From a virus: a stretch of DNA of 37,244 nt. Positions 18,308 through 34,348 of this stretch are shown one piece after another. The position numbers were made by a program, and so were the translations under genes. Positions within the stretch are counted from its first letter, which is position 1. Every line of letters starts with the position of its first letter. Location: the IMG/VR virus record IMGVR_UViG_3300025072_000016, positions 1 to 37,244 of that record; one strand, written 5' to 3'. The notes under the pieces are model-generated. The model was not told the origin of the DNA. It saw nothing but the letters and a program-made list of their open reading frames with translations, and did no database searches.

Positions 18308-18366
18308 ACAACCTACGCTTTCATTAGTTCGCTCGCCCGGCTCCTGCCAAACGAAGCGAGCGTTAT
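18308..18366 (-). repeat. attC-like site A1, next to SSB
   Basis: Read leftward it begins ATAAC and ends GGTTGT, the only one of ten sites not ending GTTATG. The inner arms CGCTTCGTT and AATGAAAGCG pair with one extra A, as in sites A3, A4 and A5. The stop codon of the upstream cassette gene lies inside its ATAAC. Its SSB side is joined to a 16-bp palindrome, GTAGGTTACAACCTAC (18301-18316). Confidence 0.7.
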
Positions 18367-18590
18367 AGTAAAATTTCTTCTGCTAATCGTTCAGCAGTTT
18401 CTTTACTTAATCCCCAATTCATTTTCTTTCTGTAGCAATCTTCACAGTTTGCGTTCTTTTTTTCAACGGGTACTTCTTCGCCTTTTTCGTCATCCCACTC
18501 CCAATCTATGCCAGTCGGGTCGCAAGTGTCGCAATAAACACTACTGAATTTTGAAGTAAGCAATTCTACTATTTCACTCTTGTTTTTCAT
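18363..18590 (-). CDS. Cassette protein with two CxxC pairs (75 aa)
   Basis: ATG 18590 has AGAGG five bases upstream; an in-frame ATG at 18611 lies within the attC-like site. The 75-residue product has CDTC and CEDC about 30 residues apart, separated by an acidic loop (WEWDDEKGEEVP), as in a small zinc ribbon, and a helical end. The stop codon is inside ATAAC of site A1. No family is recognised. A DNA- or protein-binding role is possible. Confidence 0.6.
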   Translation of the reverse strand: MKNKSEIVELLTSKFSSVYCDTCDPTGIDWEWDDEKGEEVPVEKKNANCEDCYRKKMNWGLSKETAERLAEEILL

Positions 18591-18608
18591 ATCAACCTCT
18601 TTCGTTGT

Positions 18609-18672
18609 CATAACCACAGCATTGTCGATGACAATTCGCTTAGGCTCACCGCACAACACGCGAATTGTTATC
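18609..18672 (-). repeat. attC-like site A2
   Basis: Read leftward: ATAAC, arm ACAATTCGC, arm GCGTGTTG (sharing two bases), a centre with GCGGTGAGCCTAAGCGA, arm GCGAATTGT, arm CGACAATGC, then GGTTATG. The first and third arms are perfectly complementary over nine bases; the second and fourth pair with one extrahelical A. The central box is shared with site P4 in the other array. The stop codon of the neighbouring gene is in ATAAC, and GTTATG supplies an in-frame ATG to the next gene. Confidence 0.75.
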
Positions 18673-18862
18673 TATCATACCCCAGCAGTGAGCATCCATC
18701 GCAATTATTCTCGTGACTTAGCTCATATATTACTTTGTCTCTGTCATTTAACTCTATCTCCATTTTTAACAAATGCTCGTATATTTGAGCTTCTGATTTT
18801 TGCTTATAGAGGAATTTTGCCGTTTTACTTATTTTATCTGTGTCAATCTTTTTTATATCCAT
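18668..18862 (-). CDS. Cassette protein, helical with C-terminal CxxC (64 aa)
   Basis: A 64-residue, Lys/Glu/Asp-rich protein. The likely start, ATG 18862, is the ATG of GTTATG in site A3; an in-frame ATG at 18877 also lies in the site. The helical body (KTAKFLYKQKSEAQIYEHLL) is followed by NNCDGCSLLGY. The stop is inside ATAAC of site A2, so the whole cassette has almost no untranslated sequence. Function unknown. Confidence 0.55.
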   Translation of the reverse strand: MDIKKIDTDKISKTAKFLYKQKSEAQIYEHLLKMEIELNDRDKVIYELSHENNCDGCSLLGYDR

Positions 18863-18919
18863 AACCTTCGCTTTCATTAGTTCGCTCGCCCGGCTCCTGC
18901 CAAACGAAGCGAGCGTTAT
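18860..18919 (-). repeat. attC-like site A3
   Basis: Read leftward: ATAAC GCT, arm CGCTTCGTT, central GGCAGGAGCC hairpin, arm GCGAGCG, arm AATGAAAGCG, AAG, GTTATG. The outer ATAAC/GTTAT pair is separated from the inner pair by a short unpaired spacer, as in attC. The sequence is close to site P2 (32965-33025) on the opposite strand, with about five differences and one indel. Confidence 0.75.
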
Positions 18920-19186
18920 TTAAGATATTTTTACTACCGTCTCAGGGTCTACCTCAGTATAATGAAAATCTATTTTCTCCATTCCTGAATCTGCATATCC
19001 TGCTTTTACTGTATTTGATGTCATTTGGTGTAAAATAAAGCACCTTTTCTTGCTAAACCTATCTGGATATTTATCAAAACTCTCATCTGTTGTGAAGATA
19101 TCCTCTGATTCAACCTCTACCAGACTTCCACAACAAGGTCCAGCTAAAACCCCATTTATTGGCTCTCCTGTAAATATATGGTCCAT
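18920..19186 (-). CDS. Cassette protein of unknown function (88 aa)
   Basis: ATG 19186 is preferred, with AAGGG upstream at good spacing; ATG 19201 is in frame. The product has GPCCGSLVEVES near residue 20 and a mixed alpha/beta pattern ending DFHYTEVDPETVVKIS. It is the last of three genes between sites A4 and A3, and its stop is one base from ATAAC. No family is recognised. Confidence 0.6.
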   Translation of the reverse strand: MDHIFTGEPINGVLAGPCCGSLVEVESEDIFTTDESFDKYPDRFSKKRCFILHQMTSNTVKAGYADSGMEKIDFHYTEVDPETVVKIS

Positions 19187-19206
19187 CTTATTCCCTTTCA
19201 TAACTC

Positions 19207-19554
19207 CTACTTTGTATAATGTTCAATAATCGCGTTTGCGAGCTCTTCAGTGAGTTCAAACTCTTCATCTTCATTAATTATCTTAGCCTTGTCGGTACAA
19301 CCTCGATCTTTGTACCAGTTCATAACTAAGTAGCCTCTTTCGTCAAAATTCCAACTTATTGGGAGTGCTAGAACAGAGATTGACCCATTGTCTTCACCAT
19401 AAGTTTTAACTCCATTTTTATGGGAAAGTCCTCGAAGGAGGTTAAGTGTAGCACAGTTCCAGTTTTCGGGGGTAAAAGTGTCTCCTAAAGGGAACCCGCA
19501 CTTCGGATCAGATCCGTTCCATGTTTTTCCTCGTAAATCACAGTATTTGCACAT
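19207..19554 (-). CDS. Cassette protein with cysteine motif (115 aa)
   Basis: The start at ATG 19554 overlaps the stop of a 29-codon frame (TAATG). The 115-residue product begins CKYCDLRGKTWNG and continues DPKCGFPLG and NWNCATLN, a possible four-cysteine metal site in the first 40 residues. The rest is mixed (SISVLALPISWNFDERGYLV) with an acidic helical end. No relative is recognised. Confidence 0.6.
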   Translation of the reverse strand: MCKYCDLRGKTWNGSDPKCGFPLGDTFTPENWNCATLNLLRGLSHKNGVKTYGEDNGSISVLALPISWNFDERGYLVMNWYKDRGCTDKAKIINEDEEFELTEELANAIIEHYTK

Positions 19555-19643
19555 TATTTTTTCCGTTCTTCGATTATCCAAAGTTCATTGTTTAAGTCAG
19601 CAAGTTCCATCTTCATTTTGACCGTTTTATCACAGTCATTCAT
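19554..19643 (-). CDS. Small leader-like protein (29 aa) starting in attC-like site A4
   Basis: ATG 19643 is the ATG of GTTATG in site A4. The 29-codon frame (NDCDKTVKMKMELADLNNEL) ends in a TAATG overlap with the cysteine-motif gene, so translation is probably coupled. The fit of both ends argues for use; the peptide itself resembles nothing known. Confidence 0.45.
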   Translation of the reverse strand: MNDCDKTVKMKMELADLNNELWIIEERKK

Positions 19644-19701
19644 AACCTACGCTTTCATTGGTTCGCTCGCTCAACTCCCGCCAAACGAAGCGACACGTTA
19701 T
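19641..19701 (-). repeat. attC-like site A4
   Basis: Read leftward: ATAACGTGT, arm CGCTTCGTT, GGCGGGAG centre, GAGCGAGCGAAC, arm AATGAAAGCG, TAG, GTTATG. Only TCGC/GCGA remains of the alternative outer arms. The stop of the 110-residue cassette gene is inside ATAAC. Confidence 0.7.
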
Positions 19702-20030
19702 ATGTTGATATTTTTCAATTCCTCTATAGCTCCATCAATTCTACCGTAATCATAATCATCATTGTTATGGTCTAACAATTCAATAGAGCTGTATAGTTCT
19801 TGTATTCTATTACTTATTTTTTCTTCAACTAACTTACTATCTATCAGTAGTTTTGCATTTTCTTCTACTGTCTCCATTCTCATCTCAACAGCTTTTGCAC
19901 AATCTCGCTCAAGTCCCTTGGCATAATTGAACAACTCAAAGAACTTATCTTCGTCCATAATAGCTTCTGAGTTTTCGCTATTAATTGAGGTAAAATCCAC
20001 ATCGTTTATTTTGAAGCTATCTAAATCCAT
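19698..20030 (-). CDS. Cassette protein, acidic and coiled-coil-like (110 aa)
   Basis: A 110-residue acidic protein between sites A5 and A4. The middle (AKGLERDCAKAVEMRMETVE, then AKLLIDSKLVEEKISNRIQE) has heptad-like spacing and probably forms a helical bundle or coiled coil. It starts a few bases after GTTATG of site A5 and stops inside ATAAC of site A4: a clean one-gene cassette. Function unknown. Confidence 0.6.
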   Translation of the reverse strand: MDLDSFKINDVDFTSINSENSEAIMDEDKFFELFNYAKGLERDCAKAVEMRMETVEENAKLLIDSKLVEEKISNRIQELYSSIELLDHNNDDYDYGRIDGAIEELKNINI

Positions 20031-20034
20031 AAGT

Positions 20035-20094
20035 CATAACCTGCGCTTTCATTAGTCCGCTCGCTCGACTCCCGTCAAACGAAGCGGTCGTTAT
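20035..20094 (-). repeat. attC-like site A5, first of the leftward array
   Basis: Read leftward: ATAACGAC, arm CGCTTCGTT, a centre GACGGGAGTC, GCGAGCGG, arm AATGAAAGCG, CAG, GTTATG. CCGC/GCGG provides the alternative pairing that is CTCGC/GCGAG in A3, a compensatory change. The methyltransferase gene stops two bases before it, so that gene may itself be the first cassette, though no sixth site is seen upstream. Confidence 0.7.
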
Positions 20095-20096
20095 TC

Positions 20097-21122
20097 CTAC
20101 ATAAAACTCAACTGTGCTGTCTCTTCTGTTATTCTCTGTTGTGCCATTTCATAGTACTCTTTGTCTAGTTCAGACGATACCACATTAAGCCCTGCGTGAA
20201 ACCCCTCAATACATTCTGAGCCACTGCCACCAAAAGGAACTAGCATATTCATGCCTTTACGGCTACAGGTTCTTATAAGTGATGCACAAAGCTTAGGCGG
20301 TTTCATTGTTGGGTGTTTCCACCTTCCTGTGATGTGTGCTTGTTGTGAAAACTTCAATACATCCGTTAATTTCATGTAATTATTAAACGGCCTTCTAAGC
20401 TCTTCATACTCTTTTCTAAGCTCTTCATACTCTTTTCTAAGCTCTTCATACTCTTTTCTAAGATATTCATACTCTTTTCTAAGATATTCACCGTTTAGAT
20501 GTTCTCTTATTGTTAAGTACTGTTCTTCCGTTATCACATTTTGACCGTTAAGCCAATTAGAAACACAACCAGTTAAACCGCCTGTTTTTGATGGGAAAAG
20601 TTTGGCTATTTCTTTATTTGTAACCTTTGCTCTTTTAAATTCATCTCTCAAATATTTAGCAATTGGGCTCTTCGGGTTTATGTGTTCTTCCATTACTCGC
20701 TCAAGCCCCGTTTTATCCCACTCTTCGGGCTCTGTTCCGTTTGAGTAACACAGAATGCGCTCATTGTGAGTGTTGAACCTTCTGGCCATTTCGGGGCTGT
20801 AATATTGATACTGCATAGAGTCGCATTTTTCCCATATGAGAGAATTTTCAAGGTTGAAATGTTTATCCAGTATTATTTGAGAGTATGCTATTTTCCTATC
20901 ATTCCCCCACCAAAACAAAGTCCCATTATCAGCCATAACCCTTTTAATTTCTATAGCCCACTTTTCAACATCTTTTAAATAGTCCTCAAAGCTTGACCAA
21001 ATAAAATCAAACTTTCCTTTAACTTCAAAGTAAGGAGGATCAACTATTATCAAGTGCTGACTTTTATCTTCAAGTGTTGCCATGAGTTCCATGCAATCAC
21101 AGTTTTTTAAGTCTATTTTCAT
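20097..21122 (-). CDS. DNA methyltransferase (N4/N6 type) with heptad-repeat insert
   Basis: A 341-residue enzyme that should methylate adenine N6 or cytosine N4 with S-adenosylmethionine. DPPY is at residues 28-31 (LIIVDPPYF) and the cofactor motif VPFGGSGSECIEGF is near the C terminus, so the catalytic motif comes first. TMKPPKLCASLI is typical of DNA_methylase N4/N6 proteins. An insert at about 165-250 combines a helix-turn-helix-like segment (NKEIAKLFPSKTGGLTGCVS) with four to five heptads LRKEYEE, probably target recognition plus a helical spacer. It would protect phage DNA from host restriction or mark it. The ribosome site is AAAGGAAAGGA. No partner endonuclease is adjacent. Confidence 0.9.
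   Translation of the reverse strand: MKIDLKNCDCMELMATLEDKSQHLIIVDPPYFEVKGKFDFIWSSFEDYLKDVEKWAIEIKRVMADNGTLFWWGNDRKIAYSQIILDKHFNLENSLIWEKCDSMQYQYYSPEMARRFNTHNERILCYSNGTEPEEWDKTGLERVMEEHINPKSPIAKYLRDEFKRAKVTNKEIAKLFPSKTGGLTGCVSNWLNGQNVITEEQYLTIREHLNGEYLRKEYEYLRKEYEELRKEYEELRKEYEELRRPFNNYMKLTDVLKFSQQAHITGRWKHPTMKPPKLCASLIRTCSRKGMNMLVPFGGSGSECIEGFHAGLNVVSSELDKEYYEMAQQRITEETAQLSFM
20395..20490 (-). repeat. 21-bp tandem repeat in the methyltransferase gene
   Basis: A 21-bp unit, CTAAGCTCTTCATACTCTTTT as read on the + strand, occurs three times exactly (20395-20457), once with three changes (20458-20478), and then in part. Each copy codes the heptad LRKEYE(E/Y). Unit length in frame allows copy number to change without a frameshift, altering the spacer length in the enzyme. 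Confidence 0.9.
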
Positions 21123-21189
21123 TCTTGTCCTTTCCTTTTAATACTACCGATTTCAAGAGCCTGAAACTCAAAACTCAACCCCCTAGGGG

Positions 21190-21762
21190 CTATAAGAATT
21201 CTACATTTGTTATTCTATGAACATGCCCGCCACAACCAAGAAAGTCGGGGCGAACACTTGACACTTCTGCATATGACGGACCAAGAACTCCAGACTTTTC
21301 AAGGTAGTCAAGATGTTTTTCTTTTGTGTCCAATAACAACCCACAAGAGGAAACAAAGCACATGCAATCTTGATTATAAGACAAAATAGCATGTGAAGAC
21401 CTGTGCTGTTCTGGCTTCATATAAATAATATCATAAATGTCTTGGTCCCTGTAAGACCAGTGATGAGCATGAAATTTCATACATGTAAGACCAGCCCTAT
21501 AACACGCCTTTTCTGCCCGTATAACTTCTGGGTGCGTGGCCTTAAATGACTTTCTGCTTGCTCGCTTGCTTGCCTTGTATGCACTACAGCCTTTGTAAGA
21601 AAGGTTGTATTCTCTTATTCTGTCTTTATTTTTTGCTCTTTCAATCTTTGCAACAGCTTTTTTACAAGGCTTACAAACACCCTTAAGCCCGTCCTTAGAA
21701 ATTGAGCTTTTGTGAAATTCGCTTAGAGGTTTTACCTCCTTGCATTTTGAACATTGCTTCAT
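21190..21762 (-). CDS. HNH endonuclease-like zinc-finger protein
   Basis: A 190-residue protein starting at ATG 21762, next to an AGGTGG ribosome site; an upstream in-frame ATG at 21831 reads through the hairpin and is unlikely. Cys4/Cys7 and Cys30/Cys33 make a zinc-finger start (CSKCKEVKPLSEFHK...CKPC) seen in phage HNH proteins. Residues 98-124 (HAHHWSYRDQ...MKPEQHRSSH) fit an HNH-type beta-beta-alpha metal core. It may be a free-standing homing nuclease that spread into the leftward operon, or a packaging/recombination nuclease. Confidence 0.7.
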   Translation of the reverse strand: MKQCSKCKEVKPLSEFHKSSISKDGLKGVCKPCKKAVAKIERAKNKDRIREYNLSYKGCSAYKASKRASRKSFKATHPEVIRAEKACYRAGLTCMKFHAHHWSYRDQDIYDIIYMKPEQHRSSHAILSYNQDCMCFVSSCGLLLDTKEKHLDYLEKSGVLGPSYAEVSSVRPDFLGCGGHVHRITNVEFL

Positions 21763-21763
21763 A

Positions 21764-21872
21764 CTACCACCTATAAAACAAAAGGCCATGCTAAGAGTGG
21801 TAGAGGGTGAACAAACCCTAATTCTTAGCACAGCCTAAAATGATTCTTGTTCTTTAACGCTACCACACGTTA
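21764..21872 (-). promoter_or_regulatory. HNH gene leader with competing complementary segments
   Basis: Read leftward, GTGGTAG (21866-21860) lies in the loop of a TAACG/CGTTA hairpin (21872-21855). CTACCAC (21803-21797) lies in the internal loop of a larger hairpin with stems TGCTAAGA/TCTTAGCA and AGGGT/ACCCT (21789-21830). GTGGTAG (21770-21764) overlaps the HNH ribosome site. The middle segment can pair with either flanking copy, which suggests control of HNH translation. Confidence 0.45.
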
Positions 21873-21914
21873 GTCATATAATAAATAATAAATACACAAA
21901 GTGCAACAAAAAAA

Positions 21915-21952
21915 GTAAAATAGTTAAATAAAGTTGTATTTTAGAGTATAAC
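21915..21952 (+). promoter_or_regulatory. Probable promoter of the lysis operon
   Basis: GTAAAATA at 21915-21922 lies just before TTAAAT (21924-21929), then 17 bases, then TATAAC (21947-21952). The A-rich box directly upstream of -35 is shared with the promoters near 23927, 27757 and 30437. The first gene starts at 21965. Confidence 0.45.
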
Positions 21953-21964
21953 AAGTGAGGCAAG

Positions 21965-22696
21965 ATGATAGAAGAGATTACAGAAGCATCGGGCTCCTTT
22001 AATGGAGGACAGTGGGGCGTGTTACTAACAATTGTATTAACAATGTTTACGGCTTTGGTATGGTATTTCAAATATCACACTCGTAAGACTGAAGAAGCAA
22101 TTGAGAGAGCTAAACACGAAAACAGGGAGTACAACAGACAGAGAGACGCTTTCAGAAGCTCAATGTTTGACTCAGGGCGTAAACAGTTTGATGAGATGGT
22201 TTACGATTTAAGCGGGCACTTCTTCAAGAAGATCAAAGAGATTGATGGAGAGTTTAAGTGCATCAATAAGAATCCCATTGATAGAGTTATCCCAGTATCG
22301 AGAAAGTCAGAACCTATTCTGCATCATAATGAGAGTGATTTCAAAAGTAGATTTCACGAGAATGCAGAGAAGATCTTTGATATTGTTACACAGGGCGTGA
22401 TTGGCTGCTATGACGAGTATTGTATATTCAAAACTATAGGGCCACACATCAACGGTGAAGTTTCTGAGGTTGCAGACACATACACAAGAGACCTCAATTC
22501 AAGAGCAGAGGTTTATACTAAGTCTCTCAAAGGGCGATTAATAATTGACACTTGGAGCCATGAGATAGTAGAGGCAAGCATTGAAGAAGTTGTTACAAAA
22601 GATAAAGTCGAAAAAATCATTCATTCGATATTTGAGAACTTTTACAACCGTGAATCTGCAATTGAAAAAAGGTCTCAAGATATACAGAGGCATTAA
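21965..22696 (+). CDS. One-pass membrane protein, helical cytoplasmic part (243 aa)
   Basis: A 243-residue protein with one membrane span at about residues 17-35 (WGVLLTIVLTMFTALVWYF), followed by a basic, helical segment (TRKTEEAIERAKHENREY) likely to be coiled coil. The soluble part of about 200 residues is mixed and charged. It is the first gene of an operon with a DUF1353-like and a DUF5675-like gene, so it may help lysis, but it is much longer than a typical holin. Function is not assigned. Confidence 0.6.
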   Translation: MIEEITEASGSFNGGQWGVLLTIVLTMFTALVWYFKYHTRKTEEAIERAKHENREYNRQRDAFRSSMFDSGRKQFDEMVYDLSGHFFKKIKEIDGEFKCINKNPIDRVIPVSRKSEPILHHNESDFKSRFHENAEKIFDIVTQGVIGCYDEYCIFKTIGPHINGEVSEVADTYTRDLNSRAEVYTKSLKGRLIIDTWSHEIVEASIEEVVTKDKVEKIIHSIFENFYNRESAIEKRSQDIQRH

Positions 22697-22697
22697 A

Positions 22698-23273
22698 ATG
22701 GCAAAAGTAAAAATTCTATCAGTAAAGTTGTACGGCAATATTGACACTGTGATTCTTGAGAAGAACAGGTATAGAGAACAGCGCCAACACTTAGAGCTTG
22801 AACTCGGTGAAGAGATGCCGGAGTACTATGAGATTCCTTTCTCTAATGCTCAAAGCTGGCGCATGCTTGCCAAAAATCTAAAAGTAGTTATTACCACAGA
22901 TAAAGAAGCTTTTGAATACCACCTTAATGCTGGTATGATAACGGACTTTGCGTCAATCCCTCGAATCTTCAGGGCTCAGAGATCTCTCAAAACTTTATTC
23001 GTGAGAATGCCAGACAATGACGATCCACGTATTTTGTGGCCTTCACTAATCCATGATGCAGGTTGTTCGTTTAAGCTCTTCGGAAGTGATAAGGATGGTT
23101 TTAAATTCAATAATGATATGTTCTATGCTACATGTCGATACTTTGGGCTTTCACGGGCTCAGTGTCGCCTTTTGTGGGCTGGTGTGTCTTCTCCTATTGG
23201 ATGGAACTTATACAAGAGCGGTAGAGGATACGAGAACTATGAGAGAGCACAATTAATAAGAGAGGCAAGATAA
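22698..23273 (+). CDS. DUF1353-like phage protein
   Basis: A 191-residue protein; ATG 22698 with AGAGG upstream is preferred to an upstream start inside the previous gene. The segment GMITDFASIPRIFR and then SLIHDAGCSF match the DUF1353 pattern 'TDFASVPR' and 'HD', found in many tailed phages near lysis or tail genes. The His-Asp and Thr-Asp pairs suggest a metal or catalytic site, but the biochemical role of the family is not established. Confidence 0.75.
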   Translation: MAKVKILSVKLYGNIDTVILEKNRYREQRQHLELELGEEMPEYYEIPFSNAQSWRMLAKNLKVVITTDKEAFEYHLNAGMITDFASIPRIFRAQRSLKTLFVRMPDNDDPRILWPSLIHDAGCSFKLFGSDKDGFKFNNDMFYATCRYFGLSRAQCRLLWAGVSSPIGWNLYKSGRGYENYERAQLIREAR

Positions 23274-23681
23274 ATGAATCCAACAGCAAGAATAAGCAGA
23301 ATAGCTTCAGGCCCAGAAAAAGGAACATTTGGCTCAATGGTATTTTTAGATGAGCCAATTTGTAACACGCTGGAACCATACCACAGAGATAACGCTTCAA
23401 ATGTATCATGTATACCAGCAGGGCAATATCTTTGTAAAAGGGTAAAGTCTCCCACATACGGAAATACTTTCGAGGTTACAGGAGTACAGGGTAGATCAAG
23501 TATCCTGATCCACTACGGGAACACAGCAAAGAATACACAAGGCTGTATTGTCTTAGGAGAGGAATTTGGAAGGCTTAAGGGTGATACTGCGGTGTTAAGT
23601 TCAAAGAGAGCCTTTCAAGAGTTCATGAGCCTATTAGAGGGTTGTGATGAATTTACTCTCACTATAGTAGATTGCTATTAA
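23274..23681 (+). CDS. DUF5675-like protein, probable peptidoglycan peptidase
   Basis: A 135-residue protein. CIPAGQYLCKRVKSPTYGNTF and then GRSSILIHYGNTAKNTQGCI match DUF5675. His80 and Cys91 in 'IHxGN...GC' resemble the catalytic pair of L,D-transpeptidase-like folds. In other phages such proteins replace or assist endolysins. It is the last gene before two terminators, and no amidase, muramidase or other endolysin is recognised in the window, so it is the best lysis-enzyme candidate. Confidence 0.7.
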   Translation: MNPTARISRIASGPEKGTFGSMVFLDEPICNTLEPYHRDNASNVSCIPAGQYLCKRVKSPTYGNTFEVTGVQGRSSILIHYGNTAKNTQGCIVLGEEFGRLKGDTAVLSSKRAFQEFMSLLEGCDEFTLTIVDCY

Positions 23682-23734
23682 TTATATTCTTTACATGAGA
23701 TAATTAACCTTTCCGTTTCAATCTCTGTTCGTAA

Positions 23735-23753
23735 GGGGGCCTAATCAACCCCC
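23735..23753 (+). terminator. Hairpin after the lysis operon
   Basis: GGGGG, nine bases, CCCCC forms a short GC stem 54 bases after the DUF5675-like stop, without a T-run after it. It may be a weak terminator or RNA 3' end stabiliser upstream of the stronger one at 23838. Confidence 0.45.
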
Positions 23754-23837
23754 GCTCTGAAAATGATTTTTATAAATAAACGATCTGCTTGAGCCCAAGG
23801 GAGCTCGCATGCAACATTGCTTAATCCTCTTTCCTTG

Positions 23838-23862
23838 GCCTCTCAGAAATGAGGGGCTTTTT
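23838..23862 (+). terminator. Rho-independent terminator
   Basis: GCCTCTCA, loop GAAA, TGAGGGGC (one G-U pair), followed by five T. This is a standard intrinsic terminator. It closes the lysis operon. The rest of the 305-base gap (23682-23986) holds a GC hairpin and the next promoter; I see no gene there. Confidence 0.85.
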
Positions 23863-23875
23863 CTATATCCAGACC

Positions 23876-23955
23876 CTACTGTTTAAGCCAGATTCAAATT
23901 TATTTTTAGAAATAGTAAAATAAAACGTGATATTCCCGTAACTTTACGGTATATT
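23876..23955 (+). promoter_or_regulatory. Early promoter with palindromic operator CCGTAACTTTACGG
   Basis: A 15-bp box (CTACTGTTTAAGCCA, 23876-23890) is followed by TAAAATAAAAC just before GTGATA (-35, 23927-23932), 17 bases, and TATATT (-10, 23950-23955). The 17-base spacer contains the perfect inverted repeat CCGTAA-CT-TTACGG (23936-23949), a clear repressor site between the two boxes. The same box at the same distance occurs at 33338-33417. Confidence 0.7.
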
Positions 23956-23986
23956 ATAATTATCAACAAAACAATGGAGGTTGATT

Positions 23987-27730: not shown

Positions 27731-27743
27731 AAATAGCCCCAAA

Positions 27744-27784: not shown

Positions 27785-27806
27785 GTAGGAAAGGAAAGGG
27801 GTGAGC

Positions 27807-28025: not shown

Positions 28026-28039
28026 GGAAAGAGGGAAAG

Positions 28040-29131
28040 ATGAATGAATTAAGTGTGATGAAAAATCCAGTAGCATTATTTACTGACGGCGGAGTCGATG
28101 AGTTTATCAAAAAGGCTCGTGAGTCTGCAAAGGCAGAAGTGTTTGACGTTTCTACTGCAAAAGGAAGAAAGTCTATAGCCTCAAAAGCAAACGATGTTGC
28201 AAAGATGAAGGTTGCAATTGACAAGGCTGGTAAAGAGCTTGTAGGAGGCTGGAAAGAGAAGGCGAAAGTAGTTGATGCAGATAGAAAGAAGATCAGAGAT
28301 GAGTTTGATGCGTTAAAGATCGAAGTTAGAAAGCCGTTGACCGATTGGGAAGAAGAACAGAAGGAGATTGAAGCCCAGAGAAAAGAACAGATTCAACTCA
28401 TTAAAGATATGCTTTGCACTGATGGTGAGGGTTCTGCTTTTATTGGTCGTGGCATTGAGATTCTTAGCAAAAGGGAAGATGAAGACGAAGAGATAAAGGA
28501 TCTTGTTGAATCAGTCCTTGAGAGATTGCTAGCAAAGTTTATCATTGCAGAGAATGCAGAAAAGGAAGCTGAAGAGCTACGCATTGCAGAAGAGAAAAAG
28601 GCAGAAGAAGAGCGCATTCAGAGAGAAAAAGAAGAGGAAGAGAAACGCATTGCCAGAGAAGAAGAGATAGCTCGCAAGGCAAAAGAAGAAGCTGAGGCAA
28701 AAGCGGCAAAGGAGGCCAAGGAAAAAGAAGAGGCTCACAAAAGAGAGCAAGCCAGACAGCAACAAGCCATTGAAGACGAAAAGCGAAGAGCTGACGAGGC
28801 AGAAAAGCAAAGAATTAGAGACGAAGCTATTGCAGAAGAAAACAAAAAGAGAGCACTTGAACAGGCTGAGGCTGACAAGAAAAGAGCCCTTGAAGTTGCA
28901 GAAGAGAACAAGAAAAAGGCAATTGAAGCAGAGCGCCAAAGAGTAGAGGCTGAAAAGGCCAAACAGCTTAGAGAAGAACAGGCAAGAGCCGAAGACTTGG
29001 CACACAGAAAATCAGTAAACAATGAAGTGCTTGAGTCTATTATGTCAGTTGGAATCTCAGAGGAGCAGGGCAAAGCTCTCATGAAAAAAATGATTGCCGG
29101 CGAAGTTCCCAACGTAAAATTTAAGTATTAG
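28040..29131 (+). CDS. Coiled-coil phage protein upstream of the annealase (363 aa)
   Basis: ATG 28040 follows AAGGAAAGAGGG. Residues 1-115 form a helical domain (SKANDVAKMKVAIDKAGKEL, then ADRKKIRDEFDALKIEVRKP). Residues about 165-330 are an almost pure Glu/Lys/Ala/Arg coiled coil with TolA-like composition. A short globular end (EVLESIMSVGISEEQGKALM) follows. Proteins of this build (DUF1351-like and relatives) are usual next to phage single-strand annealases and exonucleases and may scaffold or regulate them. Confidence 0.65.
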   Translation: MNELSVMKNPVALFTDGGVDEFIKKARESAKAEVFDVSTAKGRKSIASKANDVAKMKVAIDKAGKELVGGWKEKAKVVDADRKKIRDEFDALKIEVRKPLTDWEEEQKEIEAQRKEQIQLIKDMLCTDGEGSAFIGRGIEILSKREDEDEEIKDLVESVLERLLAKFIIAENAEKEAEELRIAEEKKAEEERIQREKEEEEKRIAREEEIARKAKEEAEAKAAKEAKEKEEAHKREQARQQQAIEDEKRRADEAEKQRIRDEAIAEENKKRALEQAEADKKRALEVAEENKKKAIEAERQRVEAEKAKQLREEQARAEDLAHRKSVNNEVLESIMSVGISEEQGKALMKKMIAGEVPNVKFKY

Positions 29132-29144
29132 GAAAGAGGAAAGC

Positions 29145-29828
29145 ATGAGTGAGAATAATATGGTGCAGGTTTATTCTACGGGCGTTCAGTCCGTAGATGA
29201 CGTGCAAAGGCTAAAGCTAGAAATACAAAATTTCCATGAAGACCTAAACAAAAGACCAGACCCAAAAACAGGGGCATCAAGAAACGGAAACTCTTATGTT
29301 GTTATATCACACATTGAAATGATGCTTGACGAAATGTTTTACGGGCACTGGTCAACAGAGAACTTTCAATACAAGCAGATTGCAAATGAGATAGTAGGAA
29401 GCATTACTCTTAAGTATATGCATCCTAAAACTGGGGTGTGGCTTACAAGAGAGGGTGCGGCTTCTGTGCAGATAATGCAAGACAGGGGAGCTAAAATAAG
29501 TACCATAATGGACACTAAAAAGAAAAATGCTTTAGAGACTGGTTTCCCAAAGCTAAAAGCCATGTGTTTAAAAAATGCCTCTGCAACAATAGGAAAAATG
29601 TTTGGAAGAGACTTAAACAGAGACAACCAAGCTGAATATGAAAAACAAGGGCTAGAGGATCGAGTGTTCAGTCCTGAGCAGGTGCTTAAGGTTTTGGGTC
29701 TTATTGATGGGTCTGAAGATCTAATGAATAAGGTTTTAAAAAGTGCCCGTGTTGAGTCTATTGAGATGATACCAGAAAATAAGTATGAAAGAATAATTTC
29801 ATGGCTGGAGGAAAAATGTTCGAAGTAA
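29145..29828 (+). CDS. Rad52/Sak-like single-strand annealing protein
   Basis: A 227-residue protein. The segment YVVISHIEMMLDEMFYGHWS, then IVGSITLKYMHPKTGVWLTR, and GFPKLKAMCLKNASATIGKM resembles the Rad52/Sak-like annealase core: a helix, a beta sheet with 'G', and a helix carrying 'K-x-x-x-x-K-x-A'. It would anneal complementary strands after end resection by the YqaJ exonuclease coded next door; the two genes overlap. It could be a related Erf-type protein. Confidence 0.7.
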   Translation: MSENNMVQVYSTGVQSVDDVQRLKLEIQNFHEDLNKRPDPKTGASRNGNSYVVISHIEMMLDEMFYGHWSTENFQYKQIANEIVGSITLKYMHPKTGVWLTREGAASVQIMQDRGAKISTIMDTKKKNALETGFPKLKAMCLKNASATIGKMFGRDLNRDNQAEYEKQGLEDRVFSPEQVLKVLGLIDGSEDLMNKVLKSARVESIEMIPENKYERIISWLEEKCSK

Positions 29829-30433
29829 AAGCGGAGCAAGGAACTCCAGAATGGTTTGAGGCAAGACTTGGGAAAATTACAGCGTCTCGCTTCAAGGACG
29901 TAATGACAAAGGGGCGTGGAAAAGATGAAAAGTGGGGGAAAACAGCCCTCACATATCGCAACGAAATTATAAGCGAGATTCTAACTGGAGAGCAAAAAGA
30001 GATTTCTGGTAGAGCTTTAGAATGGGGGACAGAGAACGAGTCTTTTGCTATTGATGAATATGAAGATAAAAAAGATATATTTGTTGAGGCTTCTGGGCTT
30101 ATTCTTCTACATGAATTTGCAATGATAGGGGGCTCACCTGACGGTAGGCCATTGGGAAACTGCATAGAGGTAAAGTGCCCTTACAATTCAGCAATACATA
30201 TCAATACAGTGCTTGAGGGAATGCCAAAGGAGCATACACCACAAGTACAAGGAAACATAAACTTTACAGAGGCAGACTGGTGTGACTTCATTTCGTTTGA
30301 TCCAAGGGTAAAAGGTCCATCAAGATTGTACATTGAAAGAGTCTTCAGAGATCAAGAATACATCGACACTATGTTCGAGAGATTAGAAGAGTTTCAAGAG
30401 GAAATAGAAAAAACTTTACAGAAACTAAAATAA
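29816..30433 (+). CDS. YqaJ-type viral exonuclease (recombinase)
   Basis: ATG 29816 with GGAGG is chosen over an upstream ATG at 29801. The 205-residue product has the YqaJ/lambda-Exo fold motifs in order: GTPEWFEARLGKITASRF (9-26), ALEWGTENE (67-75), GGSPDG (105-110) and IEVKCP (117-122). Asp109, Glu118 and Lys120 fit the PD-(D/E)XK catalytic residues. HTPQVQGNINFTEADWCDFI continues the family pattern. It digests 5' ends for annealase-driven recombination. Confidence 0.9.
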   Translation: MFEVKAEQGTPEWFEARLGKITASRFKDVMTKGRGKDEKWGKTALTYRNEIISEILTGEQKEISGRALEWGTENESFAIDEYEDKKDIFVEASGLILLHEFAMIGGSPDGRPLGNCIEVKCPYNSAIHINTVLEGMPKEHTPQVQGNINFTEADWCDFISFDPRVKGPSRLYIERVFRDQEYIDTMFERLEEFQEEIEKTLQKLK

Positions 30434-30465
30434 AACGTGCATAGTGTTGCACATTGTAGTATATT
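30425..30465 (+). promoter_or_regulatory. Early promoter with operator GTGCA-N6-TGCAC
   Basis: CTAAAATAAAAC (30425-30436) adjoins GTGCAT (30437-30442), 17 bases, TATATT (30460-30465). The inverted repeat GTGCA...TGCAC (30437-30452) covers the -35 and spacer. A small HTH gene starts at 30480, about eight bases after the expected start of transcription. Confidence 0.7.
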
Positions 30466-30479
30466 GAAAGGTATAGAGT

Positions 30480-30677
30480 ATGACAGACGTTGAAAAGTTA
30501 ATTGATAGATACAAGACAATCTCTGAGGTAGCTCGGAGATTGGACACCGACAGAAGCACAGTGTATCGGTGGACAGAAGGAAAGCCAATATCGAGGGCTT
30601 TTAGAATTAGAATTAGTAACCTACTGGAGAAGAAAAATGACAAAAGAAGAGCAAATAGGAGCGGCAGAACTAGTTAA
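30480..30677 (+). CDS. Small helix-turn-helix regulator (65 aa)
   Basis: ATG 30480 has AAAGG upstream. Residues 12-45 (KTISEVARRLDTDRSTVYRW, then GKPISRAFRIRI) form a standard helix-turn-helix of Cro/phage regulator type, with the 'S-x-V-A-R-x-L' and 'S-T-V-Y-R-W' helices. The C terminus is basic. It is the first gene from a promoter with a palindrome over -35, so an autorepressor is likely. Confidence 0.8.
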   Translation: MTDVEKLIDRYKTISEVARRLDTDRSTVYRWTEGKPISRAFRIRISNLLEKKNDKRRANRSGRTS

Positions 30678-30846
30678 GGCAGAGCTTGAAATGGCAATTG
30701 CTAATACTGGTAACAAGAGAATAAAATCAACCCTTGAGGACCTTAAGAGGGAATTGTCGTGCGAAATAGGAAACTACTATTGGAGAGAAGATTGGAAAAA
30801 TGAGATTGCAGAAGACATTTACAATAAGTGGATTTTAGGGAAATAA
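30637..30846 (+). CDS. Unknown helical protein (69 aa)
   Basis: ATG 30637 with GGAGAAG upstream, overlapping the HTH gene by 41 bases. The product is helical and charged (AAELVKAELEMAIANTGNKR, then NYYWREDWKNEIAEDIYNKW). Conceivably an antirepressor or toxin-antitoxin partner of the HTH protein by position; not shown. Confidence 0.55.
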   Translation: MTKEEQIGAAELVKAELEMAIANTGNKRIKSTLEDLKRELSCEIGNYYWREDWKNEIAEDIYNKWILGK

Positions 30847-30868
30847 GCGCAAAGGAAAGAGGCAAGAG

Positions 30869-30934
30869 ATGAAAGTAATAGCAGTATATGTAAGAATAAA
30901 CGGGGTGAACAGGCCCCCAAGGGTGGCGAAGTGA
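30869..30934 (+). CDS. Very small protein (21 aa)
   Basis: ATG 30869 with AGAGGCAAG upstream codes 21 residues (KVIAVYVRINGVNRPPRVAK) and overlaps the next gene by four bases (GTGA). It may serve as a leader that couples translation. Confidence 0.4.
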   Translation: MKVIAVYVRINGVNRPPRVAK

Positions 30935-31140
30935 TAACAGTAAACGGCAAATACTACGAAGTAACAAGCCAGCTCCTTCCAGAATATAAAAAGTGTGACG
31001 GCTGTGCATTTGGGAAAGAAAGACCTTGCCCAGTAATAGCAGAACTAAAGAACATGTATTGTACTGTGCACCCCACAGTGATATACACAGAAGCAACGCA
31101 AGAAGTAAACGAAGAATTAATTAAGAAGGGTGCGAAATAA
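30931..31140 (+). CDS. Small cysteine-containing protein (69 aa)
   Basis: A GTG start at 30931, coupled to the preceding frame. KCDGCAFGKERPCPVIAELK resembles the 'CxxC...CP' segment of small phage zinc-binding proteins, and YCTVHP follows. The end is helical and acidic. It belongs to the set of small cysteine proteins of this phage. Confidence 0.55.
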   Translation: MITVNGKYYEVTSQLLPEYKKCDGCAFGKERPCPVIAELKNMYCTVHPTVIYTEATQEVNEELIKKGAK

Positions 31141-31379
31141 TGAAACACGAATTAAAAACACTGAAGTGCTATTTTGCTCCAATATTATCAGGTGAGAAAA
31201 CTGCAGAAGTTAGAAACAACTCTGACAAGGGATTTCAAAAAGGTGATATAGTGGAGTTTGTTGAAATTGATGAAGATAAAAACGAAACTGGCATGGCCTG
31301 TATTGGGATGATAACTTATGTTTTTAACTGGGATCAAAAAGAAAATAATGTAGTATTTTGCTTCGAGCTTGAAGCATGA
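31140..31379 (+). CDS. DUF3850 (ASCH/PUA-like) protein
   Basis: A 79-residue protein: KHELKTLKCYFAPILSGEKT, then EVRNNSDKGFQKGDIVEFVE. This matches DUF3850, a small phage family with the ASCH/PUA-like RNA-binding beta barrel; the 'LSGEKTxExRxNDRGFxxGD' pattern is diagnostic. It ends with the expected strand ITYVFNW...VVFCFEL. ASCH proteins may bind or modify RNA; the phage role is unknown. Confidence 0.85.
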   Translation: MKHELKTLKCYFAPILSGEKTAEVRNNSDKGFQKGDIVEFVEIDEDKNETGMACIGMITYVFNWDQKENNVVFCFELEA

Positions 31380-31498
31380 AGCATCTAATTGCACATATAA
31401 ACGAATTATTCGAACTACTCTCACCACTAGGCAATTACTGCCAGTGCGGGGCAAAAGTTGCAGGGCGTGAGTGTAAGTACTGTGGAAGGGAAAGATAG
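31376..31498 (+). CDS. Small zinc-ribbon-like protein (40 aa)
   Basis: ATG 31376 overlaps the DUF3850 stop (ATGA). A helical start (KHLIAHINELFELLSP) is followed by YCQCGAKVAGRECKYCGRER: CxC and CxxC, a one-knuckle zinc ribbon. Its size is below the usual annotation cut-off. Confidence 0.6.
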   Translation: MKHLIAHINELFELLSPLGNYCQCGAKVAGRECKYCGRER

Positions 31499-31499
31499 A

Positions 31500-31769
31500 A
31501 TGAAATATGAAGTTGAAGACGAAAAGGGTTTTAATGCTTGTAAGAAGGCTTATGAAAGCCTAAGTGATGACCTAAAGGCAGATGTTTCAAAGCTTGAAAT
31601 GTGTGGTGCAACGCCATTTTTAACAATGGGGAATGACATTATGCACCTAGACAGAAACAGGTGTCGGTGTATACAGTTTCACGTTGAGGGGTTTGTCAGA
31701 GTCCACTATGACAATCTCACCCTTAACAACAAAGCAAGGAACGTAAGAATAGAATACTCAGATGAATAG
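31500..31769 (+). CDS. Unknown protein (89 aa)
   Basis: ATG 31500 with AAGGGAAAG upstream. The 89-residue product starts helical (NACKKAYESLSDDLKADVSK) and then forms strands (CRCIQFHVEGFVRVHYDN). It overlaps the next gene by eight bases. No family recognised; the two products share a similar 'VEGxxxxxY' strand pattern (here GFVRVHY, next GVAKFYY) and may be related. Confidence 0.55.
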   Translation: MKYEVEDEKGFNACKKAYESLSDDLKADVSKLEMCGATPFLTMGNDIMHLDRNRCRCIQFHVEGFVRVHYDNLTLNNKARNVRIEYSDE

Positions 31770-31968
31770 TGCATATATCATAGACGGAGATAAACACATT
31801 CAAATAAACGGGGAAAACTTACAGTCAATAAAATTTATGATTGATGTGAACATAGTAGGCTTGTGCTGTTGTGTTGAAGGTGTTGCAAAGTTCTACTATT
31901 CAGATAAGTACAAAATGCAAATAATACTAAATGGAAACATAGCCTTTGACAATACGGGGGAAGAGTGA
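31762..31968 (+). CDS. Unknown beta-rich protein (68 aa)
   Basis: A 68-residue protein, with IIDGDKHIQINGENLQSIKF and a cysteine triplet (GLCCCVEGVAKFYYSD). It is mostly strands. It overlaps the NinG-like gene by four bases (GTGA), so is probably co-translated. Role unknown. Confidence 0.55.
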   Translation: MNSAYIIDGDKHIQINGENLQSIKFMIDVNIVGLCCCVEGVAKFYYSDKYKMQIILNGNIAFDNTGEE

Positions 31969-32450
31969 CAAGTATAAAACCACTTGGTGCAGTTCCGAAG
32001 AAGGGGAAGAAAGAGAAGGCAAAAAACTACAGTCTGATGAATGAGGCAAAGGCAAGCAAGAGAGAGTCAACATTGTGGCGGTGGGTGTCTCTATTCGTTA
32101 GATTGAGTGCAGTCCCAAGTGATGAAACTTACGGATTTGCAATATGCTTTACTTGTGGCGCTCGAAAGCACTATAAGGAGATGGACGCGGGGCACTGCTT
32201 AAGTAGAAGACACAAGAATACAAAATATCATGAAGATAATCTCAGGTGCCAGTGCGTACATTGTAACCGAAATTTATATGGGAATGTTGCAGAGTTTGAA
32301 AAAAGGCTAGGGTTAGAAATTGTAAATAAGCTTAAAGCTTTAACAAAACTTCCTGCAAAGAAAATGCCACTCTGGGAAGTTGAAGCAAAGATTGCAGAGT
32401 ACAGGCAAAAGGCAAAAGACGAAGCTTACAGAGTTGGGGTGACATTATGA
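31965..32450 (+). CDS. NinG/Rap-like recombination protein
   Basis: A GTG start at 31965 gives 161 residues. CFTC (61-64), AGHCLSRRHKNTKYHEDNLR (75-94), CQCVHCNRNLYGN (95-107) follow the NinG pattern of two zinc-binding cysteine pairs and an HNH-like 'AGH...H..N..CN...G'. Lambda NinG (Rap) cuts branched DNA, including Holliday junctions. A link to the annealase and exonuclease coded 2 kb upstream is natural. The attC-like array begins 100 bases after it. Confidence 0.85.
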   Translation: MTSIKPLGAVPKKGKKEKAKNYSLMNEAKASKRESTLWRWVSLFVRLSAVPSDETYGFAICFTCGARKHYKEMDAGHCLSRRHKNTKYHEDNLRCQCVHCNRNLYGNVAEFEKRLGLEIVNKLKALTKLPAKKMPLWEVEAKIAEYRQKAKDEAYRVGVTL

Positions 32451-32545
32451 AAACAGGTTGGCAAATAGTATTTCTAATACTAGGTATAATCATGATAGCT
32501 ATGTGTAGCTATGCAATAAGTGTTTCAGGGTTTACGGCAGGGTAG
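32447..32545 (+). CDS. Small membrane protein (32 aa)
   Basis: ATG 32447 overlaps the NinG stop (ATGA). The 32-residue product is one hydrophobic span (WQIVFLILGIIMIAMCSYAI) with a short polar end. Its opening 'MKTGWQI' is like that of the membrane protein at 36446 (MKIGWQI), so the two may be related. Confidence 0.5.
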   Translation: MKTGWQIVFLILGIIMIAMCSYAISVSGFTAG

Positions 32546-32548
32546 AGA

Positions 32549-32604
32549 ATAACACGGCAGTGGTTTGCCGAGGAACGAGGTCATAACCAACGGCAAAGGT
32601 TATG
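32549..32604 (+). repeat. attC-like site P1
   Basis: ATAAC, then TTTGCCG (32564-32570) pairing perfectly with CGGCAAA (32591-32597), then GTTATG. TGGTT/AACCA gives the alternative arms. It is the most divergent of the ten sites and the shortest at 56 bases. It marks the left edge of the array. Confidence 0.55.
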
Positions 32605-32624
32605 ACTATTTGAAAGGAACAACA

Positions 32625-32951
32625 ATGGAATGTGGAATGGATATTAATACAGATCCCGATTCAACGAAAATTGCTTTGTGTTTTGAAAATGAAATTTATG
32701 TTGGTGAAGATCTTGATTCACTTATTGAACAAGTTCGAGAAGCTACAGGATATGACATTGAAACTATTGCAAGTATGCTACAAAGAACTGCTCAATCTTT
32801 TGAAACTCTTGGAGAGGCAACCTCTTTAGTAGAAAAGAATATGATTGAATTTAAAAGACTTGTGAGCGAGGGAGATGTTTATCTTCCAAATGCAATTGAA
32901 ACAAATCATTTCTATGATCCAAAGCGAAGTAAGAAACGAAAACAGTGGTAA
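32625..32951 (+). CDS. Cassette protein of unknown function (108 aa)
   Basis: ATG 32625 with AAAGGA upstream; the longer frame from 32565 would start inside site P1 and is not preferred. The 108-residue product starts with a beta segment (DSTKIALCFENEIYVGEDLD) and continues helical (DIETIASMLQRTAQSFETLG). It ends in a basic tail KRSKKRKQW. Codons are more A/T-ending than in neighbours. No family recognised. Confidence 0.6.
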   Translation: MECGMDINTDPDSTKIALCFENEIYVGEDLDSLIEQVREATGYDIETIASMLQRTAQSFETLGEATSLVEKNMIEFKRLVSEGDVYLPNAIETNHFYDPKRSKKRKQW

Positions 32952-32964
32952 ATTTAATCACTAT

Positions 32965-33025
32965 ATAACGCTCGCTTCGTTTGGCAGGAGCCGAGCGAGT
33001 GAGCACAATGAAAGCGAAGGTTATG
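32965..33025 (+). repeat. attC-like site P2
   Basis: ATAAC GCT, arm CGCTTCGTT, GGCAGGAGCC hairpin, GCGAG, arm AATGAAAGCG, AAG, GTTATG. The outer pair ATAAC/GTTAT and inner pair CGCTT-CGTT/AATG-A-AAGCG leave one extrahelical A and a three-base unpaired spacer on each side, close to textbook attC form. It is nearly the same as site A3. Confidence 0.75.
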
Positions 33026-33043
33026 GCACAGAAGGCAGGCAGG

Positions 33044-33262
33044 ATGACATCGAGAAAGACGATAGAAAAATTCTGTGAAGAAAACGGAATAACTATAAGT
33101 AAGCTTGAGTACGATAAAAACTATGAATCTATATATGGGGATTGTAGTAATGTATCAGAGTGGATAATTGAGTGTCTAGTTAAGGGGGAAGAGGAAGTTC
33201 TTCACGCCTATACAGCTTACGAATTAATTGATGAAATACAGGATGCAATTGACAACCTATAA
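33044..33262 (+). CDS. Cassette protein of unknown function (72 aa)
   Basis: ATG 33044 has AAGG eight bases upstream; in-frame ATGs at 33008 and 33023 lie in site P2. The product is acidic and helical (RKTIEKFCEENGITISKLEY, then VSEWIIECLVKGEEEVLHAY). The first segment could be a degenerate helix-turn-helix. The stop lies inside ATAAC of site P3. Confidence 0.55.
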   Translation: MTSRKTIEKFCEENGITISKLEYDKNYESIYGDCSNVSEWIIECLVKGEEEVLHAYTAYELIDEIQDAIDNL

Positions 33263-33317
33263 CACCTGTGTGTGGTGCGGTGAGGTACGAACAGTCATCC
33301 ACAACACATAGGTTATG
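33259..33317 (+). repeat. attC-like site P3
   Basis: ATAAC, ACCTGTG, arm TGTGTGG, GCGGTGAGG centre, ACAG, arm CCACAACACA, TAG, GTTATG. TGTG-TGTGG pairs with CCACA-A-CACA leaving one extrahelical A. CTGT/ACAG is the alternative pair. Sequence differs from P2 but the fold is kept. Confidence 0.7.
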
Positions 33318-33337
33318 ATTTTATTTCATTTGGAACA

Positions 33338-33417
33338 CTACTGTTTAAGCCAATCTTGAATAAATCTTTCAGAAAGTGAAAGAAAGTGTTGTGTTATCTT
33401 TCAGAAAGTAGTATATT
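33338..33417 (+). promoter_or_regulatory. Promoter with twin operators CTTTCAGAAAG inside a cassette
   Basis: CTACTGTTTAAGCCA (33338-33352), -35 TTGTGT (33389-33394), 17 bases, -10 TATATT (33412-33417). The 14-bp repeat ATCTTTCAGAAAGT, which contains the palindrome CTTTC-A-GAAAG, occurs at 33364-33377 and 33396-33409, 32 bases (about three helical turns) apart; one lies between -35 and -10. The layout and the 80-base length equal those at 23876-23955. Confidence 0.75.
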
Positions 33418-33423
33418 ATTAGT

Positions 33424-33462
33424 GTTGAGAGGGAAATGGTTCTCTCCAACAGCCTCGGAGGC
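33424..33462 (+). promoter_or_regulatory. Leader hairpins covering the ribosome site
   Basis: GTTGAGAG (33424-33431) pairs with CTCTCCAAC (33442-33450) with one bulge. GCCT/AGGC (33452-33462) forms a small hairpin that contains the GGAGG ribosome site of the next gene. Translation may thus be controlled at the RNA level. Confidence 0.45.
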
Positions 33463-33466
33463 TTGT

Positions 33467-33640
33467 ATGTTTGGTAAGGATTACATTGGTAAGGTTGGCG
33501 GTCGTGAGTGTTTTAAGGTTCTTACTGACATCGGTACAGTTATCGAGGTTGGAAGTATCACTCTTGTTTATAAGAGCGGTGACTCTAATAGAGAGTGCAT
33601 CTACCGCTTAAGAAAGGCGGTGGCTAAGTATGGACTTTAA
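33467..33640 (+). CDS. Unknown protein (57 aa), cassette with own promoter
   Basis: ATG 33467 lies five bases after GGAGG. The product is beta-rich and basic (KDYIGKVGGRECFKVLTDIG, then SITLVYKSGDSNRECIYRLR). It overlaps the next gene by 11 bases. First gene from the twin-operator promoter. Not recognised; by context it could be one half of a two-gene regulatory or toxin-antitoxin-like pair. Confidence 0.6.
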   Translation: MFGKDYIGKVGGRECFKVLTDIGTVIEVGSITLVYKSGDSNRECIYRLRKAVAKYGL

Positions 33641-33812
33641 ACAAGTCTTAAGGGAGAGAGGGTTTCTTCTCTCCTTTCGTGATTTTGGTAGAATTGTAAA
33701 ACTTACTCCACACCATTTGAGAGAATTATATAGAACTGACCAAGATAGATTTTTTACACTACTTGACACTGCAATAGAAAGATGGGATTCGATATGCAAA
33801 AAGATAAAATAA
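33630..33812 (+). CDS. Possible helix-turn-helix protein (60 aa)
   Basis: ATG 33630 with GGTGG upstream, overlapping its neighbour. Residues about 16-37 (SFRDFGRIVKLTPHHLRELY) look like a helix-turn-helix: a helix, a turn at K-L-T, and a recognition-like helix. The rest is helical and charged. It is a candidate binder of the CTTTCAGAAAG palindromes 220-270 bases upstream. Confidence 0.5.
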   Translation: MDFKQVLRERGFLLSFRDFGRIVKLTPHHLRELYRTDQDRFFTLLDTAIERWDSICKKIK

Positions 33813-33994
33813 ATACACTGGAAGAAACATTAAAACACAAAAGGCTCACCGTGTTTTTCAATGCAAAAAAGTTTCTCGTAACTGCTTTGAAGAACGCAAA
33901 CGGCTATATGTTTTCAGAATGTATCTGCGGGGCAACTATGGCGGAGTTTAATGCTGTAGAGAAATATGTATCAAGTGAGCTAGGAACAATATAA
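33794..33994 (+). CDS. Unknown protein (66 aa), last gene of three-gene cassette
   Basis: ATG 33794 with GGGA upstream; ATG 33782 is an in-frame alternative. It overlaps the HTH-like gene and stops inside ATAAC of site P4. The product has helices (INTLEETLKHKRLTVFFNAK) and a cysteine pair near MFSECICGATMAEF. Not recognised. Confidence 0.55.
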   Translation: MQKDKINTLEETLKHKRLTVFFNAKKFLVTALKNANGYMFSECICGATMAEFNAVEKYVSSELGTI

Positions 33995-34052
33995 CGTGTC
34001 GCATGTTGGGCGGTGAGCCTAAGCGAGCAGACACGACAATGCAGAGGTTATG
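33991..34052 (+). repeat. attC-like site P4
   Basis: ATAAC, arm CGTGTC, arm GCATGTTG, centre GGCGGTGAGCCTAAGCGA, arm GACACG, arm CGACAATGC, AGAG, GTTATG. CGTGTC pairs perfectly with GACACG; GCAT-GTTG pairs with CGAC-A-ATGC leaving one A out. The centre and last arm are the same as in site A2 in the other array. Confidence 0.75.
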
Positions 34053-34081
34053 GAATTAAATTTAATAGAAAAGAGAGCGAT

Positions 34082-34291
34082 ATGAATGTTGGAGAAATGC
34101 GAGAGTGGATTGACGGCCTAGAAGATGACGTTGAAATAAGATTGACCGATGATTCTTTAGGTGGCGACACTGAAATATTAAACTTTACGCTTGCAGAGGA
34201 GTATGCTGTTTTGCACATTGATTCAGAGACGGACGCACATTTGGATTCGATTGTGTCAGACTTTGTGGAAAACTTAAAAAATTGGAAATAA
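34082..34291 (+). CDS. Cassette protein, acidic (69 aa)
   Basis: ATG 34082 has AAAAGAGAG upstream and overlaps by four bases (ATGA) the end of an 11-codon frame that starts at the ATG of GTTATG in site P4 (34050-34085), so translation may be coupled. The 69-residue product (NVGEMREWIDGLEDDVEIRL, then DDSLGGDTEILNFTLAEEYA) is like small phage proteins of the 'L-x-x-L-P-D-D-A-x-V' kind, which are known from many cassettes and phages but have no set role. It stops inside ATAAC of site P5. Confidence 0.6.
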   Translation: MNVGEMREWIDGLEDDVEIRLTDDSLGGDTEILNFTLAEEYAVLHIDSETDAHLDSIVSDFVENLKNWK

Positions 34292-34348
34292 CGCTCGCAT
34301 GGTGTGCAGTGAGTGAAACGAGCAGTCACCACCCATGCAGAAGTTATG
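34288..34348 (+). repeat. attC-like site P5, end of rightward array
   Basis: ATAAC, arm GCTCG, arm GCATGGTG, AGTGAGTGAAA centre, arm CGAGC, arm CACCCATGC, AGAA, GTTATG. GCATG-GTG pairs with CAC-C-CATGC leaving one C out; GCTCG/CGAGC is the alternative pair. The backbone promoter-like repeat begins 20 bases downstream. Confidence 0.7.

Follow-up and report, generated by a model that had tools for sequence, protein, structure and literature searches.

Facing arrays of attC-like sites with reversed gene polarity in a tailed phage genome

Integron cassettes are usually viewed as bacterial cargo that is occasionally carried by phages. In sedentary chromosomal integrons, such as those of Vibrio, the gene precedes its attC site on the same strand. 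Clusters of attC sites without an integrase (CALINs) have been described in the virulent phages TJE1, P12002L, and PH101, and IntI1 was active on five of six phage attC sites (Qi et al., 2023; PMC9892861). A sequence-only reading of the DNA analyzed here had proposed two cassette arrays in a tailed phage as an unusual vehicle; clusters of attC sites without an integrase in tailed phages, virulent ones included, were thus already on record. The present genome resembles the published cases in being that of a tailed phage with small genes and methyltransferases between attC-like sites and no integrase. In contrast, the bulged bases of the TJE1 site and of the clearer P12002L sites lie in the arm that is normal for the gene direction, whereas those of the phage group described here are reversed throughout, and the present phage carries two facing arrays with an inversion between them. 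In the open-access literature, preprints aside, no report of a systematically reversed polarity or of an array-to-array inversion in a phage was found. The uniform reversal of polarity, the sister-phage evidence for exchange bounded by sites, and the array-to-array inversion are new.

The window, that is, the whole stretch of 37,244 nucleotides analyzed (IMGVR_UViG_3300025072_000016), is a tailed-phage contig with genes for a portal, head morphogenesis, a major head protein, a tail region, and SSB. SSB is followed by the left array, a central segment, the right array, and NinB/Orf with further genes. The central segment encodes a methyltransferase, a replication initiator, a RecE-type exonuclease, and NinG/Rap. 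Judged from the contig of a sister phage (G003; IMGVR_UViG_3300025873_000024), the window is a nearly complete genome with a full size of about 38.2 kb; about 995 bp are absent at the contig ends, a stretch that in the sister contains the greater part of a terminase-like gene. When the window tail region was used in a DNA search of isolated phages, no matches were obtained. The DNA methyltransferase at 20097–21122, which adjoins one end of the central segment (end A), has a tandem heptad-like repeat (EYLRKEYEELRKEYEELRK). The sister retains only about the last 60 bp of this gene next to the site and has a different N6/N4 methyltransferase in a cassette.

All ten sites of the sequence-only reading were recovered at their positions, in two arrays on opposite strands. 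They are 56–63 bp long and read ATAAC...GTTATG on the gene strand, five beside leftward and five beside rightward genes; strands given here for sites are those of the attC orientation, opposite to the gene strand. The left array (sites on the plus strand, genes on the minus strand) starts with an outer anchor at 18308–18367, whose GTTATG box is degenerate (GTTGT), and continues with sites at 18609–18671, 18860–18919, 19641–19701, and 20035–20094, the last adjoining end A. The right array (sites on the minus strand) comprises sites at 32549–32604, which adjoins the other end of the central segment (end B), 32965–33025, 33259–33317, and 33991–34052, and an outer anchor at 34288–34348. A CALIN requires at least two attC sites without an integron integrase, and two clusters of five are present here.

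The bare ATAAC...GTTATG pattern was rejected as evidence, as a reversed control matched about equally often (4 + 4 versus 5 + 4). Two models of the whole site were used. Because the training of one (R1) included some of the window sites, the fair test is the other (R2), which was built only on sites of other phages. Scanning both strands, R2 found six of the ten sites: 32549 (59.5 bits, E = 5e-10), 33259 (54.4 bits), 18609 (37.1 bits), 34288 (33.3 bits), 33991 (30.7 bits), and 20035 (29.6 bits; type A in the feature list), the latter five with E-values of 1.3e-3 or better. The sole extra match in the rest of the window was 22 bases long and not convincing (E = 0.6). The type-A sites 18308, 18860, 19641, and 32965 were missed by R2 under default filters and were detected by R1 alone (30.3, 45.3, 38.3, and 48.4 bits); type-A sites within the window are 81%–98% alike. 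R1 also detected the site of TJE1. The sister contains a 26-bp mini-site, ATAACCACTTGAATGTAGTGGTTATG (L013:5463-5488; G003 21463-21488), in which the outer boxes are present and the inner stem is absent; it is perhaps a decayed site.

The proposed attC-like folding was borne out by paired changes in an alignment of 35 sites from the window, the sister, five other phage contigs, and one bacterial metagenome-assembled genome (MAG). Standard pairs occupy 92.1% of stem cells, against 77.7% in shuffles, and 64 stem cells show changes on both sides, against 15.7 in shuffles, none of 500 of which reached 64. The signal holds when window and sister sites are removed (94.3% paired; 37 double changes versus 8.6). 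Each site has R boxes, ATAAC/GTTAT, unpaired spacers, a 10-bp inner stem with a bulged T and A, and a variable tip. The boxes, with the conserved AAC/GTT of attC, are nearly invariant as GTTAT, the RRRY part of GTTRRRY not being strict, and the covariation indicates an inner L stem and unpaired spacer in which structure is conserved over sequence. The extrahelical bases are confined to one arm in every site, with a spacing of five rather than the six of aadA1. Among 345 inner-stem cells, 305 are Watson-Crick, 39 are others, and only one is G-U, where shuffles give 15; this near-absence of G-U would point to a hairpin of DNA rather than RNA. By these tests of sequence and structure the ten sites are attC-like, and they are predicted to be recombined by an integron integrase.

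Comparison with the sister phage reveals what is exchanged. The two genomes are 98.6% identical over 1–4857 and 98.9% over 15533–18671, yet most of their cassettes differ, for the most part at the predicted cut site, and the cassettes that had been postulated between the sites are indeed swapped at site borders. Four sites are common to both almost base for base: 18609 (63/63), 19641 (60/61), 33259 (59/59), and 34288 (60/61). None of the four keeps its ATAAC-side flank: from 0–2 bases off the site onward, the sequences are unrelated (36–40 matches in 60, where random pairs average 33.5 with a maximum of 41). The flank on the GTTATG side is common to both phages in three of the four, the exception being 33259, where both flanks differ. 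At 34288 the outer flank is the same and the inner gene different, and site 19641 travels together with gene 19207–19581 into the sister's right array. The central segment behaves alike at its two ends, A and B, where a flank common to both phages gives way to unrelated sequence at ATAAC. Of the junctions at site edges, all read from metagenome contigs, six thus lie at ATAAC, where identity falls from full to background within 0–2 bases, and one at GTTATG (33259); a further break, outside this count, lies at a lone GTTATG (19199). Not every exchange has therefore taken place at ATAAC. Unit boundaries and the borders of gain, loss, or swap coincide, as the sequence-only reading had required of related phages. 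The left anchor 18308 holds the same position in the sister with a different interior (54/61), and in each genome there is another site to which it is near-identical. This pattern is suggestive of a second process, gene conversion between repeats.

The 13.9-kb segment between 18672 and 32548 is inverted in the sister. The match between the two genomes reaches 18671, the ATAAC end of site 18609, and continues with window positions 32554–32447 on the other strand; additional blocks from the central segment also align in reverse orientation. The right breakpoint is the ATAAC end of site 32549. A crossover at the ATAAC of these two sites predicts the order of the sister's right array as 19641 with its gene, 33259, and 34288, as seen; the agreement, in three markers, is only consistent with such a crossover. 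Recombination from one array to the other would, given their facing orientation, invert the segment without deleting it. Shufflons and phage tail-fiber inversion systems likewise invert DNA between oppositely oriented recombination sites. Unlike these, the segment here is 13.9 kb long, holds early genes, is bounded by attC-type hairpins, and has no resident invertase.

The least improbable of the alternatives, though still unlikely, is that the sites are 60-bp dispersed repeats on which a homologous or annealing system of the phage itself acts, with no integron integrase. The RecE-type exonuclease, NinB/Orf, and NinG/Rap genes would supply such a system, and both the similarity of the type-A sites and the conversion-like anchor 18308 fit it. 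Against this, the two partner sites of the inversion share only six bases (ATAACA), and the four common sites are full length with a sharp ATAAC border, the breakpoints not being spread through the repeat.

The position of the bulged bases sets the orientation of the sites. By definition, the extrahelical bases of attC lie on the R''-L'' arm (PMC2727003). Three controls carry the bulges in the gene-following arm: the TJE1 site, an integron site of Vibrio anguillarum, and the attC of aadA1 from plasmid R100. The clearer sites of P12002L (38938 and 32283) match this normal layout, others being ambiguous. In all 35 aligned sites, the bulges are in the opposite arm, on the GTTATG side, and the window sites are therefore reversed relative to their genes. 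When Bouvier et al. moved the extrahelical bases to the other arm, the recombination point shifted to R'' (PMC2727003), so that hairpin structure and natural breakpoints agree on ATAAC. Two expectations of the sequence-only reading had to be turned around: the genes run against the attC orientation rather than with it, and the bulged bases and most sister junctions place the swaps at the ATAAC end rather than at the GTT of GTTATG. The crossover end is likely ATAAC, and the mobile unit the site plus the gene after it. The canonical cassette, a gene followed by its own attC in the same orientation, is not what was found; all phage arrays are reversed. In a census of 65 sites, 49 had both neighboring ORFs antisense to attC and none had both in sense, the rest being mixed or incomplete, with the longest ORF taken as the neighbor and possibly a spurious overlapping one. 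It is quite unlikely that this call is wrong and that the sites are ordinary attC sites whose bulges are unusual and whose cut falls at GTTATG. In favor of that view, stop codons directly adjoin ATAAC and leaders come after GTTATG, as in ordinary cassettes, and GTTATG is the break point at one site edge and at one lone box; the bulges of all 35 sites, set against the three known controls and ten chromosomal sites, and the six junctions at ATAAC speak for the reversed orientation.

Nine other phage contigs (G005–G009, L112, L113, L115, and L117) carry the same sites, likewise reversed relative to their genes. A cassette common to the window and G005 (32565–32951, plus strand, 128 aa; 89% DNA identity) has different surrounding sites in each, and site 32549 recurs in G008 with one mismatch. 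A type-A pattern search found only the sister and one relative. In G007, a lone site (L069:9538-9598) lies between ORFs, distant from the array and near structural-looking genes. This recurrence of the layout bears on whether the inversion or the array differences are assembly artifacts, which is very unlikely. The contigs are metagenomic with repeated near-identical sites, and only the sister turned up in a search for other contigs containing the ends of the central segment. Against a misjoin, the six bases in common at the inversion are too few to drive one through a repeat, and a contig of a different sample (G002) repeats the outer part of the sister's right array with 99.9% identity.

The cassette genes are small, and a Pfam search of those tested in the window gave no match. 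In the left array they lie on the minus strand at 18363–18659 (98 aa; shared with the sister along with site 18609–18671), 18668–18877 (69 aa), 18920–19201 (93 aa; preceded by the lone GTTATG at 19199–19204 and no full site), 19207–19581 (124 aa; 98.8% identical over 505 bp, including the site, in the sister's right array), and 19698–20030 (110 aa). In the right array, on the plus strand, 32565–32951 is followed by 32981–33262 (93 aa), a long inter-site segment at 33318–33990, and 34013–34291 (92 aa). Genes 18668–18877, 19698–20030, 32981–33262, and 34013–34291 were taken from the ORF list and included in the Pfam search. The long segment holds three small ORFs (33386–33640, 33630–33812, and 33782–33994); the usual post-site leader is absent there, and it possibly has its own promoter. 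DNA methyltransferase genes occur in some cassettes of relatives (G003, G006, and G008). Directly after each site comes a leader that contains a ribosome-binding sequence, and different cassettes often have similar leaders. At many phage sites, genes often end in TTAATCAC-A/T-AT right before ATAAC, so that the trailing end of the cassette is partly conserved, like the leader. The weakest alternative takes the hairpins for RNA elements that precede genes, namely processing sites, terminators, or leaders, and explains the borders by phages replacing genes with those of other phages. It can draw on these leaders but is highly improbable, given the scarcity of G-U pairs, the lack of an Rfam match, the weak predicted folds, and its failure to predict exact exchange borders or an inversion.

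Neither the window nor the sister has a match to Pfam Phage_integrase, in keeping with the earlier statement that no tyrosine recombinase is visible, and the locus is not a complete integron; attI and Pc, which one would also contain, were not noticed in the phage. With no recombinase found in either genome, an integron integrase would be expected to act in trans. The integrase of phage G005 was considered as a candidate and rejected, being Xer-like and far below the integron integrase cut-off. A scan of genome contigs gave 26 matches, about the number expected by chance, and an array only in MAG bin_47 (L057/G004). This MAG has the same site family in the normal layout, with sites on the gene strand and, in most, a stop codon against the site. 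AttC-like sites were located by script beside the integrases of two integrons from the same phylum (G052 and G012), and these also have the normal layout. The phage sites share with these sedentary chromosomal integrons and with those of Vibrio the attC hairpin, two bulged bases, an unpaired spacer, and a variable tip; only the chromosomal genes precede attC on the same strand, the phage genes running against it. R1 found no sites near eight integrases of this phylum and no further sites in 80 relatives and 168 genomes of the phylum, and the phage capsid protein had no match in genomes of the phylum. Integron integrase matches were obtained in 18 of the 168 genomes (L094–L109), 14 of them over the cut-off; many lie in open frames of 410–600 aa, which exceeds the 315-position model.

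The reading favored here, with a probability of roughly 0.8, is that of a phage in which two integron-type arrays flank the early/replication segment and an integrase acting in trans recombines the folded strand at ATAAC, giving both swaps and inversion. Each site would fold as an attC hairpin of single-stranded DNA. An integron integrase, probably from the host, would recombine this strand in its folded state, with the cut inside the ATAAC box (between G and TTAT on the other strand). The mobile unit would be a site with the gene that follows it, which would explain why the genes are antisense to the attC orientation, and the outermost site of each array would stay as an anchor. Recombination within one array would swap cassettes, and that between the oppositely oriented arrays would flip the central segment without deleting it. 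Transcription may run outward through the arrays.

Arrays built to one consistent, reversed design are present in about ten phage lineages. It is an even bet that these phages share a cassette pool of their own, set apart from the chromosomal pool by the reversed polarity of gene and attC, and that, with the two arrays facing each other, an integron integrase can exchange cassettes and turn the early segment around while keeping it in the genome. Given the opposite polarities, a cassette from either pool would insert antisense in the other. Several members of the pool are DNA methyltransferases, a plausible counter to restriction and hence a possible benefit of carrying the arrays. If this reading is true, phages would be active users of integron recombination with their own gene pool, and the reversed arrays would offer a natural test of how gene direction is determined in integrons.
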